Of a DNA stretch of 47,355 nt, positions 8,325 through 41,695 are shown in pieces. The position numbers and the translations under genes were made by a program. The notes beneath the pieces were generated by a model. It had not been told where the DNA came from and did not search any database. It was given only the letters and a program-made list of their open reading frames with translations. Source of the stretch: an uncultured Bacteroidota bacterium (GTDB taxonomy: Bacteria > Bacteroidota > Bacteroidia > Bacteroidales > P3); contig CACYZN010000007.1 of assembly GCA_902778925.1 (NCBI GenBank), positions 1-47,355 on the forward strand. The letters are read 5' to 3'. How positions within the stretch are numbered: position 1 is the stretch's first letter; each line of letters starts with the position of its first letter.

Positions 8325-11300
8325 ATGAAACAGAAACTACTCTTTTTGGCAGCAATGATGCTTGCAATGGCGATGCCACCAAATGCATGTGCCTACGACT
8401 TCTCCGCTGTAACCCCAAGTGGTCATACCTTGTATTATGAGGTGGTTTACGAAGAAATATCCGACGGATTCAACGGCGTGTTTATTGTCAGAGATGAAGC
8501 GCCCAATTTGCCAGACGCATATATCGATTATGATGGAAGTGTGGTTGATGTCAATGGTAATGCGCTGTGGGCTTCGTATCCGAATATATCCGGCGACCTT
8601 ATAATTCCGTCTACAGTAACAAACTATGCCGGAACCGTATATCAAGTGGTCGGAATAGGAGACATGGCCTTCTTCGGATGCCAAGGGTTGACTTCGGTAA
8701 CGATAGCATCATCCGTTACATACATATCAGACGTGTACGTTTTCGCAGGATGTTCAAATTTGACCAGTGTTATCATGGGAGAATCGCCAACGACTATCCC
8801 TGAGTTGATGTTTGTTGGTTGCCACAATCTTGTATCCGTTCAGTTGCCGACATCCTTGTCGAGCATAGGCAACCAAGCGTTTTACTATTGTACAAGCCTG
8901 CCTACCATCACGATACCTAATACATGCACCTCGATTGGCGTCAATGCTTTTATGCACTGCACCAGCCTTGCATCGTTGACCATACCCAATTCGGTAACCC
9001 ATCTTGGCGACTTGGCCTTTGCCAATTGTGATAGTTTGTCTTCTATTGTAATTGGTAATGGTATAAACAACGTGAATATATTTCATTTCAATGGATGCAC
9101 TGGAATTACTTCCATCACCGTCGAGGCTGGCAATACGGTATACGACAGCCGCGACAATTGCAATGCAATTATAGAAACATCGAGCAATACATTGATATTC
9201 GGATGCAGCACAACGACAATTCCCAACACTGTTACCACCATTGGAGAATGGGCCTTTATAGCGGCCCCAGACACAATAACAATTCCTGAAGGTGTCACGA
9301 ATATCGGATGGGGTGCATTTGGAAATGGCTTGCACCTAAAAGCCATTTCATTGCCCAATACACTTACCCAGATAAATGGAATGGCTTTTTCTGGTGCCAA
9401 GATAGACACCTTGCATCTTCCGGCTTCAGTGCAGTCTATAGGCCAATATGCCTTCGGTGACTGCGATAGCCTGAATGCTATTGTCTGTGGAGGGGTCACT
9501 CCACCGGTCCTCGGCGACCATGTTTTCTACCGCGATTACATTGACCCCAGCAGCTATGACATCGGCAATCCTGAGGCAACATTGATAGATGTGCCAGTGC
9601 ATGTACCGCTTGGCATGGTTCCGACCTATCGGGCAGCCCAAGGGTGGAATGAATTCTCAGTGATTACTGACGAGATTATTGCCGACACAATTATACATAA
9701 CGACACTGTCGACACCACAGTATCCATCTGCGACACTATCGTGTATCAACTGCCATACACTGCCGACTTCACCCAATGCTGGACTGCTTTGAATGGCGCA
9801 GAGATTGTCGACGAACAGCATGCTTCGTTCAATGAATTGGGGCAGGAACTGAGAAGCCCGTGGATTGAGTTTGAAGGAGGCGAATGCTATATTGATTTTA
9901 CTATATTGCGTGACGACCTTAACAATCCATGGTGGTACGAACCCGATTCGACAGCATCGCTCCATGTCTACATTTTGAATGAGGAGGGCGAGATTGCGTA
10001 TTTCGATATAGGATCCTCATCGAAAAGCGACAGATTCACATTCAATTTTGTTGCGCCTGCTGGTCGATTGCGCTGTGTGTTCGAGAACACAGATACCGCA
10101 GCCCACGCCATGGTTCAGCTTATCACAATGAAACTATACTCATACCCGATGAGCCTTACAACAGAAGGTCCAGATACCGTGCAGGTAGGCGACACCATGA
10201 CATTGCAGGCACACTTGACAATGCCAGAAGGCGAAACTCCCGACAGCTGGGAATGGACGTTCCGCAACGGTCTGGGTTATTCCGCTTATATCTCTTCCAA
10301 CGACACTACAATGGTTTCTTCCACCGACAGTAGCCGCACTTTGGTATGGAATAATACTGGCATATACTATATCAACATTGATGTCAGGAAAAACAATCCT
10401 TATGCCTACGTATCTGTCCGACATATTGTAATGGTGGTTGCCCCTGACACAACCGTTGCTCCCGATATTTGTGACACGATGTCGTATGCATTGCCCTACA
10501 ATGCCGACTTTACACAGTGTTGGTCAACAACAAGTGGCATCAGCATAGTCAATCCGACAGATGCCTTATTTTCTATGCAGAACAGCACACTAACAAGCCC
10601 AGTCATTCATGCCGATTCCGATACCTATATTCATTTAACCATTGAACCATATGGCGACATAACCGATACTACATTGTATCAGAGTTCTGTTAATTCAGTA
10701 ACCATAAATGAATTAGATGTAGAAGGCAACATTGTAGGATATCATAACGTATATTATCTTCCGAACTTGTTGGGTGAACACGATTTCAAATTGGCATCCA
10801 CTGGAGATATCCGCATTAAAATAGCATCAACCACAAACACAGCTTTCCGCATAACCAATTTCTGGGTAGATTCTTACCCTTGGTCAATACAGATGCATGT
10901 GCCAGATACGGTCTACCGTTACCATTCTTCCACATTCATAGCATTTGCAAATCTTCCTGACACAACAGAAGAGATTGCATATACTTGGATGAGGGGAACT
11001 AGCGATATGCTTGGTCAAGACGATACTCTTCAATTTATGTACACGTCAACCAATTATTATGGATACTATACCATAGTGCTTCGTGCGGTTAGCAAATATC
11101 ATGGTAGTAAAGAATTAAGCAAATATCCTGTGGCATTCTTATCTCGTCCATGCACGGGAAACCCCATAACACAGTTCCCTTATACCCAGGATTTTGAGTA
11201 CGGCACAGACTGCTGGCAAATAGATAATTCATACTCAGGGACTTTGGTTACTGACGGTGGTGCTCACGAAGGATATAACTTCTATCGTATTTGGAGGTAT

Positions 11301-12215
11301 TCCAACGAACATGGCACACTAAAATCACCAATTCTCGAGCTTAACTCGACAGTACGATATATGGTAAGTTTCTTTGCTCGACAACAGCACAATAGCAAGC
11401 TGAATGTTTATTTTGGCAAAGAGGAAGATACGCTATCTGTCATACTACCGCTAACCAATGCATGGTCTAAGTATGAGATGATATTGCCAGAATCAACGAT
11501 ATGGGTTGGGTATCATGCTTTCGATGGACAATATGTAAATGGAGATAACGCTTCTGTTGTAGAACTAGATAATATTACGATTACTCCGCTTGGCATAGAA
11601 AACGATAACAGCATTACCGTCGTCGATACGGTACACATAGATACCGTGGTTTACAACTACACGACAATAGACAGTGTGCAATGGAACATCATTCAGGAAG
11701 ACTCCATTATCTATTTTTATGATACCACTTGTGCCGTACATGACACCATTATTGTTACAGTTACAGCACACGACACAACAATTTTGGCGGACACCACCTA
11801 CATCACTGTGACGGACACCACCTATATCACTGTGACGGACACCATACTAGTGACACAACATGACACCATCACAAACACAGTATTTGACACGTTAACAGTG
11901 AATGATACAATTTGGCTGACACGGACAGACACTCTTTTGTTACACGACACAATTATCATACACGACACTGTGTACATCACCCAAGAAGGTATTGATGACA
12001 TAGATGCGATAAATGCAAAGTTGTATACAAGCAATGGCCAGATAGTGGTAGAGGGTGCAGACGGCAACATGGTGACTATGTATGATATCAACGGGCGTAT
12101 GCTCGCCACTAAACGGGACATGTATGCTCCATTGCGTTTCGAGACTCCCGCCAGTGGCACCTACATAATCAAGATTGGCAACCATGCGGCAAGAAAGGTT
12201 GTGGTGATACGGTAG
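8325..12215 (+). CDS. BspA-like leucine-rich-repeat surface protein with T9SS sorting domain
   Basis: This 1296-residue secreted protein has a signal peptide (MKQKLLFLAAMMLAMAMPPN then ACA). Residues about 70-430 are BspA/LRR_5 repeats with the usual IPNSVTHLGDLAFANCDSL pattern. Next come three modules opening with CDTIVYQLPYTADFTQCW (about 469), CDTMSYALPYNADFTQCW (about 716) and a third near 943 (FPYTQDFEYGTDCW). They resemble cleaved-adhesin-type jelly rolls and alternate with PKD/Ig-like parts. Residues about 1095-1222 are a Thr/Asp-rich stalk built on DT(V/I/T) repeats, including two 24-bp copies coding DTTYITVT. The end (MYDINGRMLATKR to GTYIIKIGNHAARKVVVIR) is a type A T9SS sorting domain, so cell-surface attachment is expected. 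It has its own promoter and terminator and is more AT-rich than the right half of the window. Confidence 0.88.
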   Translation: MKQKLLFLAAMMLAMAMPPNACAYDFSAVTPSGHTLYYEVVYEEISDGFNGVFIVRDEAPNLPDAYIDYDGSVVDVNGNALWASYPNISGDLIIPSTVTNYAGTVYQVVGIGDMAFFGCQGLTSVTIASSVTYISDVYVFAGCSNLTSVIMGESPTTIPELMFVGCHNLVSVQLPTSLSSIGNQAFYYCTSLPTITIPNTCTSIGVNAFMHCTSLASLTIPNSVTHLGDLAFANCDSLSSIVIGNGINNVNIFHFNGCTGITSITVEAGNTVYDSRDNCNAIIETSSNTLIFGCSTTTIPNTVTTIGEWAFIAAPDTITIPEGVTNIGWGAFGNGLHLKAISLPNTLTQINGMAFSGAKIDTLHLPASVQSIGQYAFGDCDSLNAIVCGGVTPPVLGDHVFYRDYIDPSSYDIGNPEATLIDVPVHVPLGMVPTYRAAQGWNEFSVITDEIIADTIIHNDTVDTTVSICDTIVYQLPYTADFTQCWTALNGAEIVDEQHASFNELGQELRSPWIEFEGGECYIDFTILRDDLNNPWWYEPDSTASLHVYILNEEGEIAYFDIGSSSKSDRFTFNFVAPAGRLRCVFENTDTAAHAMVQLITMKLYSYPMSLTTEGPDTVQVGDTMTLQAHLTMPEGETPDSWEWTFRNGLGYSAYISSNDTTMVSSTDSSRTLVWNNTGIYYINIDVRKNNPYAYVSVRHIVMVVAPDTTVAPDICDTMSYALPYNADFTQCWSTTSGISIVNPTDALFSMQNSTLTSPVIHADSDTYIHLTIEPYGDITDTTLYQSSVNSVTINELDVEGNIVGYHNVYYLPNLLGEHDFKLASTGDIRIKIASTTNTAFRITNFWVDSYPWSIQMHVPDTVYRYHSSTFIAFANLPDTTEEIAYTWMRGTSDMLGQDDTLQFMYTSTNYYGYYTIVLRAVSKYHGSKELSKYPVAFLSRPCTGNPITQFPYTQDFEYGTDCWQIDNSYSGTLVTDGGAHEGYNFYRIWRYSNEHGTLKSPILELNSTVRYMVSFFARQQHNSKLNVYFGKEEDTLSVILPLTNAWSKYEMILPESTIWVGYHAFDGQYVNGDNASVVELDNITITPLGIENDNSITVVDTVHIDTVVYNYTTIDSVQWNIIQEDSIIYFYDTTCAVHDTIIVTVTAHDTTILADTTYITVTDTTYITVTDTILVTQHDTITNTVFDTLTVNDTIWLTRTDTLLLHDTIIIHDTVYITQEGIDDIDAINAKLYTSNGQIVVEGADGNMVTMYDINGRMLATKRDMYAPLRFETPASGTYIIKIGNHAARKVVVIR

Positions 12216-27661: not shown

Positions 27662-28390
27662 TTACGGCATCGCCGTGACGGTCCCTACAAAGATGGAGTG
27701 CATCCAGACATACCTGTTCGAGTTATAATACCCAGCAGTGCTGGCATATCCCACATCTGTTCCAGCCAAAGCCTCGACATCGGAACTATAAGACACACCA
27801 GATACCGAATTCGACTTCGTAATAGGTATGACATAGAGATTGACCACCCTATAGCCTGCGTCGGGCAAAGGCATTTCCACAACACCAGTCGACTCCACAA
27901 CCGTTGAACCGACAACATGGAAACCACCATTCTCGCTGTCGGCAAATACCGCCGCAACAATGATCCGCTCCACATCATCCGGCAAAGTGGCATTCATAGT
28001 CAGTTTGCCCTCGGCAATAGCAGGGGTGTCCACAACAACACCAAAGCTATAAGGGCCTTCCGAGAGCAGCAGGTCGGAAGGCGCGAGCACCGCCTGCACC
28101 TTACCATCGGCAACAGTTACCGACATACGCTGCATAACCGTTCTCATCCAACGCTGACGACGACCCTGTTTGCCAGAGCCTTTCATGCCGTAGAGCATCT
28201 CGGACGGAATGATTTTAGACAGACTGCCCGCAAGTGCAATCTTAGCACGTACAGAGACTTGCTGCTCTGTGTTTCCGTTCTTGACATGACGAAGACGTTT
28301 GCGGAGATAAACTTCGCCATCTTGTCCTTTGACACCTACAAGATTACCAGTCTTTCCGGTAAACTCGATTACTGAATTGATCTTTCCCAT
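27662..28390 (-). CDS. DUF6266-type protein, unknown function
   Basis: The 242-residue protein begins MGKINSVIEFTGKTGNLVGV, followed by YLRKRLRHVKNGNTEQQVSV. This opening (MGxI...GKxGNxVG...R...NxxTxxQ) is characteristic of a Bacteroidota-restricted family (DUF6266 as I recall) with unknown role. The N-terminal 80 residues are basic (GKQGRRQRWMRT) and the C-terminal part looks like beta-rich repeats. There is no signal peptide. It is convergent with radC; upstream lies a long non-coding region with 11-bp repeats. Confidence 0.7.
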   Translation of the reverse strand: MGKINSVIEFTGKTGNLVGVKGQDGEVYLRKRLRHVKNGNTEQQVSVRAKIALAGSLSKIIPSEMLYGMKGSGKQGRRQRWMRTVMQRMSVTVADGKVQAVLAPSDLLLSEGPYSFGVVVDTPAIAEGKLTMNATLPDDVERIIVAAVFADSENGGFHVVGSTVVESTGVVEMPLPDAGYRVVNLYVIPITKSNSVSGVSYSSDVEALAGTDVGYASTAGYYNSNRYVWMHSIFVGTVTAMP

Positions 28391-28600: not shown

Positions 28601-28684
28601 TGCAATGACATTGCAACACACTGGACTGATAGGAAATGCGTGGGAGCGTGATGGCTGCAATGCATTGCAACATACTGGACTGGT
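28601..28684. repeat. direct repeat pair, about 28 bp, offset 54-55 bases
   Basis: The copy at 28601-28628 (TGCAATGACATTGCAACACA then CTGGACTG) recurs at 28656-28682 with one base deleted and one changed. The offset is 55 bases, or 54 after the deletion; 55 is five times the 11-bp period of the array that starts 20 bases further on. The rest of the 474-base gap between DUF6266 and folB (28391-28600) has no gene I can support. Confidence 0.75.
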
Positions 28685-28702
28685 GGTGGATGCAGAGAAA
28701 CG

Positions 28703-28845
28703 GCACGCTCTATGCATGGTCTCGGCATGGTCTCGGCATGGTCTCGGCACGCTCTAGGCATGGTCAAAGCATAGTCGAGGCACGGTCTAAGCATAGTGCC
28801 GCCACGGTGTTGCCTCAGTGTTGCCCCGGTCCAACCAAGGTCGAT
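28703..28845. repeat. 13 tandem 11-bp units (consensus GCAYGGTCTCG)
   Basis: Starting at 28703 the sequence can be cut into thirteen consecutive 11-mers: GCACGCTCTAT, GCATGGTCTCG three times, GCACGCTCTAG, GCATGGTCAAA, GCATAGTCGAG, GCACGGTCTAA, GCATAGTGCCG, then four more degenerate ones (CCACGGTGTTG to CCAAGGTCGAT). GT at unit positions 6-7 is the most constant part. There are no spacers, so it is not a CRISPR. It lies downstream of folB and upstream of DUF6266. The period equals one helical turn. Short open frames through it only reflect the repeat. Confidence 0.88.
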
Positions 28846-34325: not shown

Positions 34326-34457
34326 TTTTCGATAGTTGTCTTTAAAACATTTTATCAACTAACGGCCACCTCGGCTAAATATTGCGCCTTGGCTCAAAAA
34401 AAGAGCCCCGTCGGGAAGAGCCCTGTTTCTGCACCTTTCCTTCCTCGCTGATAATCA

Positions 34458-34587
34458 ACCCCTCGCCGCCTCCTCTCCGGATCCCCTCCGGTATTTCTTA
34501 TGTACTTCTTATGTATTTCTTATGTATTTCTTATGTTTTAAACATAAATACAACATAAGAAATACATAAACCCGGGGTGACTGGGAG
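34458..34587. repeat. 11-bp-period inverted element A (units CTCnCCG and GTATTTCTTAT)
   Basis: In 11-base steps from 34458: three GC-rich units (ACCCCTCGCCG, CCTCCTCTCCG, GATCCCCTCCG), four AT-rich units (GTATTTCTTAT, GTACTTCTTAT, GTATTTCTTAT twice; 34491-34534), a small palindromic centre GTTTTAAAC (34535-34543), then inverted units ATAAATACAAC and ATAAGAAATAC (34544-34565) and a GC-rich tail (ATAAACCCGGG, GTGACTGGGAG). The GC flank is roughly inverted across the centre. It lies between the divergent lemA and 45-residue-protein genes, within the 398-base gap 34326-34723. No gene is apparent elsewhere in the gap. Confidence 0.87.
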
Positions 34588-39036: not shown

Positions 39037-39495
39037 TCAGTCTTTGATTTCTTCGTAAGGGGTGAAGCCCTCGTCGTCGGTGTCGGAGGGATGCTGGCGG
39101 TCGGCGGGCAGGTCCTTGCGCTGCAGGTAGCGGTTGGGCCACTCGAGCAGGTAGTTGACCGCGGTGAGCACCAGGCTGAAGAGCAGCGCCGAGCCGAAGC
39201 TGTCGACCCGGAAGCCGCCCACTATGGCCGAAGCCATGAGTATGATGATGGCGTTGACGACGAAGAGGAACAGACCCATCGTGATGGCTGTAACGGGCAG
39301 TGTCACAACAATCAGGATGGGGCGCACCAGGTTGTCGAGCAGCGAGATGACCACCGCCGTGAGCAGCACGGCCCAGAACGACGACACGTCGACCCCGGGC
39401 AGGAGCCAGGCGCCGACGATGACGGCTATGGAGAGCACCAGCAGGCGGGCCAGGCAGCCACTGTGGCCGCTGTAGAATTGCAGGTTCATCTTCAT
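39037..39495 (-). CDS. holin-4-like (Phage_holin_4_2/YvlD type) membrane protein
   Basis: This 152-residue protein has four hydrophobic segments (about 15-32, 38-58, 60-80, 84-125) with VVISLLDNLVRPILIVVTLP and FGSALLFSLVLTAVNYLL, typical of YvlD-like proteins. The name 'phage holin' is a database label; there are no phage genes here. An acidic soluble tail (SDTDDEGFTPYEEIKD) follows. Its start overlaps the TsaC-like gene stop by 4 bases and panC lies 8 bases downstream. Role unknown. Confidence 0.85.
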   Translation of the reverse strand: MKMNLQFYSGHSGCLARLLVLSIAVIVGAWLLPGVDVSSFWAVLLTAVVISLLDNLVRPILIVVTLPVTAITMGLFLFVVNAIIILMASAIVGGFRVDSFGSALLFSLVLTAVNYLLEWPNRYLQRKDLPADRQHPSDTDDEGFTPYEEIKD

Positions 39496-40112
39496 AGGTC
39501 GACCTCTCCTTTACCCTGGCGCACCAGTTCGATGCCGTCGCTGCAGTCTATCACCGTCGACGGCTGGTCGTCGGCCAAGCCGGCGTCGACCACCATGGCC
39601 ACGCGCGACCCGAAGCGGTCGTGTATCAGCTCGGGGTCGAGGTAGGTCTCGGGCTCGTCGCCGGTGTCGTCGAGCGGCCGCACCGAGGTGGCTATCAAGG
39701 GCACGCCCACCTCGTCGACGATGGCGCGCAGGGCGCCGCACTCGGGCACGCGGATGCCTATAGTGTGGTTGGCATTCTGATAATTGCGCGGCACACTGCC
39801 GGCGGCTTCCATGATGAAGGTGAACGGTCCCGGCAGGCAGCGCTTGAGCAGGGCGAAGGTGTCGCGGTCCATGGCGCGCACGTATTCCGACGCCTGGCTC
39901 AGGCTGGAGCACAGCATCGAGTACTTGGCCTGCTTCACACGGAACCCTTTCAGCTGCGCAATCTGCTCGACAGCCTTCTTGTGTTCCATCGAACAGGCGA
40001 AAGCATACAGCGTGTCGGTAGGCACAATGGCCACCTCGCCGCCCTTCAGCGCCTCGGCCACTCGCCTCACTTCCCGCGAGTTAGGATTATCATTATAGAG
40101 TCTTACAAGCAT
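39492..40112 (-). CDS. YrdC/Sua5-family L-threonylcarbamoyladenylate synthase-like protein
   Basis: The start at 40112 (MLVRLYNDNPNSREVRRVAE) gives 206 residues; the in-frame ATG at 40139 is inside the -7 box. The YrdC fold is shown by GGEVAIVPTDTLYAFACSM (about 24-42), LKGFRVKQAKYSMLCS (KRxxKPxxxL region with alterations), LLKRCLPGPFTFIM and HTIGIRVPEC. TsaC/Sua5 makes threonylcarbamoyl-AMP for tRNA t6A. YciO-type paralogues share the fold with unclear function. The changed K-R-x4-K region (usually KRPxxxPxxxL) makes YciO-like equally possible. Confidence 0.85.
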   Translation of the reverse strand: MLVRLYNDNPNSREVRRVAEALKGGEVAIVPTDTLYAFACSMEHKKAVEQIAQLKGFRVKQAKYSMLCSSLSQASEYVRAMDRDTFALLKRCLPGPFTFIMEAAGSVPRNYQNANHTIGIRVPECGALRAIVDEVGVPLIATSVRPLDDTGDEPETYLDPELIHDRFGSRVAMVVDAGLADDQPSTVIDCSDGIELVRQGKGEVDL

Positions 40113-40136
40113 AGTAATCTCTCGGTTTTGAAAGTG

Positions 40137-40144
40137 CAAAAGTA
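40137..40144 (-). promoter_or_regulatory. -7 box of the YrdC-holin-panC operon
   Basis: Minus strand TACTTTTG, a TAnnTTTG match, lies 24 bases before the ATG at 40112. It is the same octamer as in the radC and 8.3-kb surface protein promoters. A -33 TTTG at proper distance is not evident. Confidence 0.55.
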
Positions 40145-40203
40145 CAAAAAATTATTAAATTGCACGCCACCTTGTAGTTTTTTTCTCGGCAACACCCCGT
40201 TTT

Positions 40204-40409
40204 CGCCCCCTCGCCGCCGCCCGTTGCACCCCCCTTCCCCACCCCATCCCCTCCGGTCCCGCTCCGGTCGTTGTACTATCGTTGTACTATTGTTGTACTA
40301 TCGTTGTACTATCGTTCTTATGTTTTCAATAGTACAACGATAGTACAACAATAGTACAACGTGCGGAAGGGGTGCGGAAGGGGTGCGGGAGGGGTGGCGA
40401 GGGGGTGCA
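40204..40409. repeat. 11-bp-period inverted element B (units GTTGTACTATC / GTGCGGAAGGG)
   Basis: The segment can be cut in 11-base steps almost throughout. Left: GC-rich units including CCCCTCCGGTC and CCGCTCCGGTC (40248-40269). Then GTTGTACTATC, GTTGTACTATT, GTTGTACTATC twice (40270-40313). A 14-base centre GTTCTTATGTTTTC follows. Then inverted units AATAGTACAAC, GATAGTACAAC, AATAGTACAAC (40328-40360). Then GTGCGGAAGGG twice, GTGCGGGAGGG, GTGGCGAGGGG (40361-40404). RNA from either strand would fold as a long hairpin. It lies between the divergent TsaC-like and M64 genes, in the 350-base gap 40113-40462; I see no gene in that gap. Confidence 0.9.
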
Positions 40410-40462
40410 TTTTTATTTCTGGCGGAGCACAATATAGGTCAGCAAAGCGCGTTAATCAGAAT

Positions 40463-41695
40463 ATGAAACAATGCCTTGCCACACTGCTACTGCTGCTCGG
40501 CTCTATGGCGGCCATGGGACAGGCCGACGGATTCGACCGTTGGTTTGCCGACGCCACGCTGCGCATAGACTGCCTGCGCGAGGGGTCGGCCCAGGGCGAC
40601 ACCGTGTGGGTGGAACGCTGGATAGACCGCACGGCCAGCTGGCACGGTTCGCGCACACAGCTGACAGACCCCTTTGACAACGGCGACTACCGCGTGGTGG
40701 TGCGCGACGCCGAGACCGGCCGCGACCTGTACTCGCGCGGGTACAGCAACCTCTTCCGCGAATACAAGGACACCCCCGAAGGGCGCACCACCAAGGCCCG
40801 CTTCGAGGAGACACTGCTGGTGCCCATGCCCAAGGGCAGGGTGCTGATAGCACTGCAGCGGCGCAACCGGGAGACCATGCGGTTCGAGGACCAGACGGTG
40901 ACGCCCTTCGACCCGCAGCGGCAGGCGCTGGCCACGGTGCCGGTGCCACAATGGCAGCAGCGGCAGGAGATACACGGAGCCCCGGCCGAGAAGCTCGACG
41001 TGGCATTCGTGATGCAAGGCTTCGACCAGGTCCCCGACTCGGAATACCACGCCGTGTGCGACCGCATGACCGGCGTGCTCTTCGGCAAAGAGCCCTTCAA
41101 GAGTCACCGTCAGGACTTCAACGTCTACTTTGTCCGTGGCGACGCCGGGGTGGAGTACAACACCTTCGGTGCCGACCGCTACGCCATGACCTTCCGGGTG
41201 TGGCAGCTGCACGATGTGCTGGGCGACACCCCCTGCGACCACGTCATCGTGGTGCTCAACAACGGGAAGTACGGTGGCGGCGCGATATATAACTTCTACT
41301 CGGTCAGCTCGCTGCACTCGATGGCCGAGAGCGTGCTGCCCCACGAGCTGGGGCACGGCATAGGCGGCCTGGCCGACGAATACGTCGACGAGGACCTGAG
41401 CTATGCCGACCTGCACCGCACTGCCTACGAGCCACTGGAGCCCAACATTACCAACCTGGTCGACTTCGGCTCGAAATGGCAGTCGCTGCTGCCCGCCGGC
41501 ACCCCTGTGCCCACGCCGGCCCGCACCGACGTGCCGCGCAACCAGTGCGGCCCGCTGGGTGCCTACGAAGGCGCCGGCTACTCGGCCAAAGGCGTCTACC
41601 GCCCCGCCATGCACTGCATGATGCGCGACTATGCCCCCTTCTGCCCCGTGTGCCACGCACGGCTCACCGCCATCTTCAACCTCTACACCCGATGA
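40463..41695 (+). CDS. M64-family metallopeptidase, exported
   Basis: The start at 40463 (MKQCLATLLLLLGSMAAMGQ) gives a signal peptide; longer frames cross the repeat element. The 410-residue protein has an N-terminal beta domain (residues about 20-180) and a catalytic domain with HELGHGIGGLADEY at about 294-307. This fits the HExGH zinc site plus LADEY characteristic of peptidase family M64 (IgA-peptidase-like, many in gut Bacteroidota). DVAFVMQGFDQVPDSEYHAV and NVYFVRGDAGVEYNTFGAD fit the family too. Cys-rich QCGPLGAYEGAGY and CMMRDYAPFCPVCHARL lie near the end. It overlaps the next gene by 4 bases (ATGA). Confidence 0.9.
   Translation: MKQCLATLLLLLGSMAAMGQADGFDRWFADATLRIDCLREGSAQGDTVWVERWIDRTASWHGSRTQLTDPFDNGDYRVVVRDAETGRDLYSRGYSNLFREYKDTPEGRTTKARFEETLLVPMPKGRVLIALQRRNRETMRFEDQTVTPFDPQRQALATVPVPQWQQRQEIHGAPAEKLDVAFVMQGFDQVPDSEYHAVCDRMTGVLFGKEPFKSHRQDFNVYFVRGDAGVEYNTFGADRYAMTFRVWQLHDVLGDTPCDHVIVVLNNGKYGGGAIYNFYSVSSLHSMAESVLPHELGHGIGGLADEYVDEDLSYADLHRTAYEPLEPNITNLVDFGSKWQSLLPAGTPVPTPARTDVPRNQCGPLGAYEGAGYSAKGVYRPAMHCMMRDYAPFCPVCHARLTAIFNLYTR

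Follow-up and report, generated by a model that had tools for sequence, protein, structure and literature searches.

Intergenic arrays with a fixed 11-base step and changing unit sequences in a genus of uncultured Bacteroidales

Introduction

Arrays of short repeats of about one helical turn each are known from the plasmid centromere parC, where the repeats are direct and are bound cooperatively by the small protein ParR. Among dispersed intergenic repeats, the MITE BrickBuilt of Porphyromonas gingivalis is described as carrying 23-nt direct repeats between a leader and a tail, with 19 elements in one strain (PMC4596501). The REP, BIME and REPIN sequences, linked to RAYT (TnpA-REP), are described as high-copy extragenic palindromes (PMC3733652, PMC3116915, PMC8266576), and arrays of TAACTGA heptamers are reported from Beggiatoaceae, Cyanobacteria and some Bacteroidetes, one genome holding 169 sets (PMC4679880).

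Here we analyze a stretch of 47,355 nucleotides from an uncultured Bacteroidota bacterium, called the window below, and follow an intergenic element found in it through the source genome and related genomes. Dispersed bacterial repeats are usually recognized by their sequence, whereas here the period is what stays constant and the sequence varies freely, and because of this a sequence-based search would see many unrelated families. We find that a group of uncultured gut bacteria carries intergenic repeats stepped by 11 bases, some genomes having dozens to hundreds of them. The arrays tend to lie upstream of gene starts, and their spacing, about one turn of DNA in the cell, may be what matters. 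In the literature we found no description of 11-bp intergenic arrays in Bacteroidales, a weak negative, as subscription journals lie mostly outside the coverage.

Results

Architecture of the element

The element lies between two divergent genes recognized by open reading frame and domain match: a Sua5/YciO/YrdC gene on the left (39492..40112, minus strand; PF01300) and an M64-type peptidase gene on the right (40463..41695, plus strand; PF16217 and PF09471). Direct reading of the sequence and a phase print show the gap between them to hold a run of 11-base units at 40226-40408, about 183 bp long; none of its parts is assigned a strand. Outermost on the left are degenerate C-rich 11-mers that keep the register (40226..40247; phase print and Tandem Repeats Finder at 40231-40251, period 11), followed by a left outer arm of two C-rich 11-mers, CCCCTCCGGTC and CCGCTCCGGTC (40248..40269; sequence reading and Tandem Repeats Finder). 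The left inner arm (40270..40313; sequence reading, Tandem Repeats Finder and comparison of the inverted arms) defines family 1 and consists of four AT-rich 11-mers, GTTGTACTAT[C/T], the unit being GTTGTACTATC with C or T as its final base. A 14-base centre follows (40314..40327; sequence reading and comparison of family-1 copies), which is kept among the family-1 copies and, judged by eye, occurs in both orientations relative to the outer arms. Beyond the centre come a right inner arm of three inverted units, AATAGTACAAC/GATAGTACAAC (40328..40360; sequence reading and arm complementarity), and a right outer arm of G-rich 11-mers of the GTGCGGAAGGG type (40361..40408; Tandem Repeats Finder, period 11, 4.4 copies), which run in the order GTGCGGAAGGG, GTGCGGAAGGG, GTGCGGGAGGG, GTGGCGAGGGG at 40361-40404. 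A fourth inverted unit of the right arm, present in fuller family-1 copies, is missing from the window copy. Tandem Repeats Finder gave period 11 at 40231-40251, 40247-40269, 40268-40316, 40329-40361, and 40361-40408, and together with our reading confirms the layout described in an earlier note on this DNA, in which four units and three inverted ones flank the 14-base centre and GC-rich 11-mers extend the array outward in the same phase.

The arms at 40280-40312 and 40329-40361 are 100% complementary over 33 nt, and a wider pair, 40237-40301 and 40329-40393, is 80% complementary over 65 nt. When 40259-40382 was folded as single-stranded DNA, its stability (z = -11.7) was equaled by 0 of 200 shuffles, and the top lag-11 score of the gap (40113-40462) was 38 of 44 matches versus a top of 25 among 2,000 dinucleotide shuffles. 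At gathering scores, Rfam had 0 matches in the window. The longest reading frame of the M64 peptidase, from a GTG at 40361 (40361-41695), starts within the repeat; this GTG is probably not the true start, and automatic annotation could stretch the gene into the array. At this locus no cognate DNA-binding gene lies beside the array, the neighbors being the Sua5 and M64 peptidase genes.

Our lag scan of the window (lags 5-24, with a passing threshold of 37 of 55 matches) placed the element at 40220-40411 and brought the number of period-11 arrays in the 47 kb to three, with three different units. The second element (34460..34585, no strand; lag scan 34455-34573 and folding) is palindromic, is built from units GTATTTCTTAT, here called family 2, and is flanked by a LemA gene and a small gene divergent from it. 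The third array (28697..28799, no strand; Tandem Repeats Finder, and lag scan 28686-28799) is direct, of the GCATGGTCTCG type, and forms no hairpin (z -0.3). Besides lag 11, only the multiple lag 22 (28682-28833) and one period-24 array (11761-11873) passed the threshold.

Copies in the source genome

The element is not a one-off; it is a member of a dispersed repeat family. The source genome assembly comprises 54 contigs and 2,225,790 bases. Allowing up to 3 mismatches, a search in it for the family-1 double unit gave 95 forward and 71 reverse matches, the reversed control giving 4 and 1, and the centres of families 1 and 2 had 33 and 115 matches, respectively, with 0 in both controls. Adjacent exact cores up to 40 nt apart were spaced by exactly 11 bases in 68 of 72 cases for family 1 and 98 of 100 for family 2. 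Stretches of the source genome totaling 396,293 bp contained 41 lag-11 arrays, each other lag from 7 to 16 giving 0-10; as arrays were sought by a lag-11 scan, their common period is partly by construction, and the identical scan at other lags serves as the control. These stretches came wholly from contigs with pattern matches, those of the sister genomes G069, G015, and G087 mostly so, and G029 was chosen for its matches; because of this choice the array densities of the five genomes are biased upward, while the comparison between lags is unaffected.

The 29 family-1 copies that we compared vary by truncation at either flank and in which way the centre points with respect to the outer arms. 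In three copies, at loci L035, L036, and L127, the centre is duplicated or shifted, for which template switching at the hairpin might be the source. Inspection by eye for compensatory changes within families found some variants mirrored across the centre, as for unit 2 of G029, and others not. Arrays of a 7-base period (GTGGAGA and TCACCTT types) occur in stretches L112, L119, L122, and L126, and in the source stretches and window together 7 of 10 such arrays lie within 200 bp of an 11-base array. Some contigs start at an 11-base array (L033, contig 3 of the source genome, and contigs 9, 19, 20, and 28 of G075), and the assemblies have therefore probably been broken by these repeats.

Related genomes

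Many members of a single genus of uncultured Bacteroidales carry arrays, which are lacking in the sampled DNA of other genera. At 2 mismatches, the family-1 unit was found in 9 of 99 genomes of the genus, the source included, several having their own variant (e.g., TTGTACAATAG in G069). A different unit, GTTCTTCGATN, had 672 matches in G029, 556 in G075, 74 in G076, and 1-3 in three genomes, the remaining 92 of 98 having none. Of 148 genomes of the order, with the source genome as the sole member of its genus, two contained the family-2 double unit: the source genome had 492 matches, and the other a single match with one mismatch.

Scans that ignore unit identity gave a wider distribution. Among the genus genomes sampled by stretches, 9 of 10 contained lag-11 arrays. 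In 320 kb of G029 we found 23 lag-11 arrays versus 0 at each other lag from 7 to 16, and adjacent exact cores up to 40 nt apart were spaced by 11 or 22 in 53 of 53 cases. Five sister genomes sampled irrespective of arrays had 3, 5, 7, 0, and 1 arrays per 80 kb (16 in 400 kb); G086 and G087 had one array each, which is not above some other lags. A Sua5 search of named genomes, in which the source species is absent, returned 40 loci, mostly from ruminant Bacteroidales assemblies, and the 32 close ones were taken to belong to the source genus from their Sua5 identity of 70-81%. These 32 loci, 558,029 bp in all, contained 27 lag-11 arrays in 19 loci, with mostly different units, and 0-3 arrays at each other lag from 7 to 16; the count over all 40 loci was 28 before one array produced by a run of N was dropped. 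The lag-11 scan found no array beyond the genus, whether in other genera of its family (331,953 bp), in G170, likewise a different genus of that family (54,006 bp), in DNA of the order (323,199 bp), or at the eight distant Sua5 loci (144,684 bp).

The differing units of period 11 across related genomes bear out the proposal of the earlier note that unit length is held while unit sequence changes. It had also named findings that would speak against it, namely relatives whose unit lengths vary at random or a lack of similar elements in other places; when we ran this test, period-11 arrays recurred in the relatives. Its claim that simple slippage would not give such a pattern stands only in part. 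Length is kept across differing units, but slippage with homogenization in an inherited 11-base frame could keep it too, and some close relatives share units.

Hairpin formation

We folded each array as DNA and compared it with 40 dinucleotide shuffles, leaving out one source array beside a run of N (43 of 44 used). A z below -4 was reached by 38 of 43 arrays in the source genome, 17 of 23 in G029, 8 of 11 in G069, and 10 of 27 in the named loci. G015 and G087 together had 0 of 6 such arrays and the five other genomes 1 of 16; of 60 random pieces from the source genome, 0 reached this value. What unites the arrays is not the palindrome but the 11-base step, the criterion by which the scan found them and for which other lags served as the control. 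An RNA hairpin as a conserved trait was rejected, many arrays being without a strong hairpin.

Position relative to genes and promoters

In the source stretches and the window, 0 of 44 arrays lie in called genes, though about 89% of the sequence is called coding. Genes were called with simple codon-usage scripts, the first of which shortened the reading frame 8325-12215 and the second missed 27662-28390, and because of this crudeness the classes of intergenic gaps carry errors and that of the third window array is unreliable. With these classes, arrays occupied 27 of 36 divergent gaps, 15 of 273 same-direction gaps, and 2 of 33 convergent gaps (p = 1e-20 and 3e-9). The corresponding numbers were 11/24, 11/183, and 3/23 in G029; 13/21, 3/127, and 1/20 in G069, where the stretches were partly chosen for matches; and 16/44, 11/311, and 2/42 in the named loci, where the divergent gaps are not independent, as 20 of the 44 are one and the same Sua5 gap. 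Five other genomes pooled gave 6/33, 8/228, and 2/28 (divergent versus same-direction, p = 0.004). In G015 the divergent preference was absent (1/7, 7/59, and 0/9). Because arrays themselves lengthen gaps, we compared gaps of at least 150 bp separately: the divergent preference persisted in the source stretches (25/29 vs. 13/30, p = 0.0009) and was not significant in G029 (11/22 vs. 11/36, p = 0.17).

The promoter motif of Bacteroidetes is TAnnTTTG. Between array and start codon it points toward the gene on 45 of 69 start sides in the source stretches and window and away from it on 7; in G029 it points toward the gene on 14 of 28 start sides and away on 5. Within the arrays it occurs in 0 of 44 and 0 of 22, respectively. 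At the window locus, reading of the sequence shows that a promoter-like TAnnTTTG of Sua5 (40137..40144, minus strand) separates the start codon of this gene from the array, and it shows none between the array and the M64 start. Most arrays therefore lie outside the promoters and are probably not part of the main transcripts.

Element ends and mobility

The arrays are short, non-coding, dispersed, and intergenic, as expected of a MITE (centre matches numbering 33 for family 1 and 115 for family 2; none of the 44 arrays of the source stretches and window inside a called gene), and the ends of the family-1 copies vary by truncation. A motif CTGWAAAMCAG faces inward beside arrays of unrelated units. 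Inward matches numbered 10 in G029 (0.3 expected), 4 in the source genome (0.4 expected), 1 in G069, and 3 in the named loci, and outward matches 3, 1, 0, and 3, respectively; G015 and G087 had none in either direction, and the five other genomes had two matches, both outward. When 15 flanks were aligned, their shared portion began about at this motif. At L226, L230, L232, L237, and other G029 copies, a weaker shared pattern beyond the motif, resembling TGATTTACAG...CTTATGA, is possibly an inverted copy of the end motif.

In G029, the core starts 47 nt from a longer form of the end motif in 24 of 24 matches. For 26 family-2 copies of the source genome, the best CTGWAAAMCAG match with up to 3 mismatches lay 83 nt from the centre in 8, 72 nt from it, exactly one unit nearer, in 1, and elsewhere in 6 (all with 3 mismatches), while 11 had none; the reversed control gave 1. 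These fixed distances suggest that the arrays go back to one ancestral element whose end was defined, like that of a MITE. Multiples of 11 between end motif and core are not used here as evidence of a phase shared across families, because the phase of a unit is arbitrary. As a mover of the arrays, a RAYT/Y1 transposase was not found in the source genome: Y1 (PF01797), the sole transposase family searched, had 0 matches in this 93%-complete assembly and matched in 5 of 14 control genomes. Nor was an autonomous copy with the same end motif found, all 24 longer-form matches of G029 adjoining an array.

The Sua5/M64 gap across species

After grouping neighboring genes by homology, we identified the divergent Sua5/M64 gap in 21 loci, the window included. 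The gap carries a lag-11 array, with changing units, in 12 of the 21 and an array at control lags 9, 10, 12, or 13 in 0 of 21; arrays at this site are also found in four loci at contig ends (L084, L089, L090, and L109). With the window excluded, it is occupied more often than the other divergent gaps of the named loci (11/20 vs. 5/24, p = 0.03). In a Sua5 tree whose bootstrap had not settled and on which unit labels were given by eye, the same or related units occur in the pairs L078/L088 and L089/L109 and in the near neighbors L086 and L090, and more distant species differ; the presence of the array differs within the sister pair L084/L091 and the pair L082/L103. The simplest reading is that this gap has been occupied persistently over a long time or repeatedly, with the letters turning over.

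Discussion

Our preferred reading, which we hold tentatively and which may well be wrong, is that these are MITE-like non-coding DNA arrays presenting putative protein sites one in-vivo helical turn apart and marking promoter boundaries. The working part would be a row of short sites every 11 bp, about one turn of DNA in the cell, which a candidate protein would bind along one face of the helix, and the bound array would form a boundary or bend between neighboring promoters. A candidate enzyme would spread the copies, homogenization within each genome would let the units turn over while the spacing is kept, and the inverted form would be a later rearrangement in some lineages. In lac-operator looping, repression is described as rising and falling about every 11 bp, a distance equated with the in-vivo turn of supercoiled DNA (PMC3922697). 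With such a turn, neighboring sites of an array would all lie on one face of the helix in the cell. Combined with the location of the arrays behind promoters, this spacing suggests that a protein array keeps neighboring promoters apart. Counting for this reading are the strict period, the dispersed copies, the restriction to one genus, the avoidance of genes, the preference for divergent gaps, the position mostly outside promoters, the optional hairpin, and the occupation of the Sua5/M64 gap with changing units. Counting against it are the unrelated units within one genome, because of which one sequence-specific protein would hardly bind all arrays, and the many truncated copies, as expected for decaying mobile DNA. 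Also against it stand the absence of a divergent preference in G015 and its lack of significance among the gaps of at least 150 bp in G029, the few arrays of the five sister genomes sampled irrespective of arrays, the non-independent divergent gaps of the named loci, and the missing TAnnTTTG ahead of the M64 start.

A second reading, which we consider nearly as likely, is a purely selfish MITE- or REP-like repeat that has no host function and is inserted by a putative transposase with a preference for DNA upstream of promoters. Its 11-base period would be accidental, inherited and then maintained by slippage and gene conversion. Lineage-specific bursts (672, 556, and 74 matches in G029, G075, and G076, and none in 92 of 98 genomes) are what such an element would leave behind, as are near-identical copies truncated to varying extent and an inward CTGWAAAMCAG beside several families at fixed distances (47 nt for its longer form in G029; 83 nt in 8 family-2 copies and one unit nearer in a ninth). 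It accounts less well for the occupation of the Sua5/M64 gap in 12 of 21 loci and for the preference of the source genome for divergent over convergent gaps; moreover, the Y1 transposase family has no match in that genome, and in an unsystematic look no gene was noticed between the arms of any copy. A third reading, which we regard as doubtful, is a bacterial counterpart of satellite DNA: the cell would select, or a putative enzyme would write, 11-bp steps regardless of the letters, giving boundaries behind promoters, above all between divergent ones, with units and reader co-evolving fast in each species. If the palindrome were the essential part, a cruciform extruded in negatively supercoiled DNA between divergent promoters could buffer torsion, which would suit the arrays between divergent genes and the strong hairpins of the source genome (38/43), G029 (17/23), and G069 (8/11); yet z falls below -4 in only 0 of 6 arrays of G015 and G087, 1 of 16 in five genomes, and 10 of 27 in the named loci, and with the period rather than the palindrome in common we find this improbable. 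Very improbable, too, is a function at the RNA level, in which a transcribed hairpin with one A-form turn per unit would act as a terminator, an attenuator, or a small RNA. The perfect 33-bp stem and the A-form turn of 11 bp, to which the earlier note had pointed, count for it, but a role of the RNA is made unlikely by arrays that avoid genes, favor divergent gaps, and lie mostly outside promoters, with promoter-like motifs often between array and gene. Few arrays lie in convergent gaps, Rfam has no match in the window, and many arrays, including direct ones in sister genomes, form no strong hairpin. The alternative remark of the same note, that 11 bp is close to one turn of DNA, fits better. 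Finally, metagenome assemblies can collapse or expand tandem repeats, and we give hardly any credence to an ordinary one-off slippage repeat or an assembly artefact: in separately assembled genomes from several projects, period 11 stands far above other lags, and this recurrence refutes it.

If the spacing is selected, the arrays offer a natural experiment in the helical phasing of cellular DNA and are candidates for insulating divergent bacterial promoters from each other. Without such selection, they still show that the frame of a repeat can outlive its letters, and the genus is a place to seek the enzyme.

Among known systems, parC shares with the arrays a row of short repeats of about one helical turn, the binding of the arrays here being a proposal; parC is a single locus beside the gene of its own protein, whereas here the copies are dispersed and the window locus has no such gene. 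REP, BIME, and REPIN sequences, as described, are likewise high-copy extragenic palindromes, and REP sequences also differ between lineages. Compared by length, REPs, palindromes with a GTAG or CGTC tag, measure 20-40 bp versus about 183 bp of 11-mers here (40226-40408), and we know of no 11-bp period in them; in contrast to a REP/RAYT system, the source genome has no Y1 transposase and the arrays are scarce in convergent gaps. The TAACTGA heptamers resemble the arrays in forming many short direct intergenic arrays per genome near genes; unlike them, they are described as having seven bases, one fixed unit across phyla, a position mostly several nucleotides upstream of start codons, and a proposed post-transcriptional action (PMC4679880).

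The nearest known kind is BrickBuilt of P. gingivalis. It differs in its 23-nt direct repeats, the units here being of 11 nt and often inverted; it contains promoter elements, and the one motif examined here, TAnnTTTG, occurs within 0 of 44 and 0 of 22 arrays. Species-by-species turnover of units, seen here, is to our knowledge not described for BrickBuilt. Both belong to Bacteroidales, are dispersed, always intergenic, and limited in host range, and are built around an internal tandem repeat; in both, ends are deleted from the outside inward and whole units are gained and lost, the features of BrickBuilt being as described (PMC4596501).
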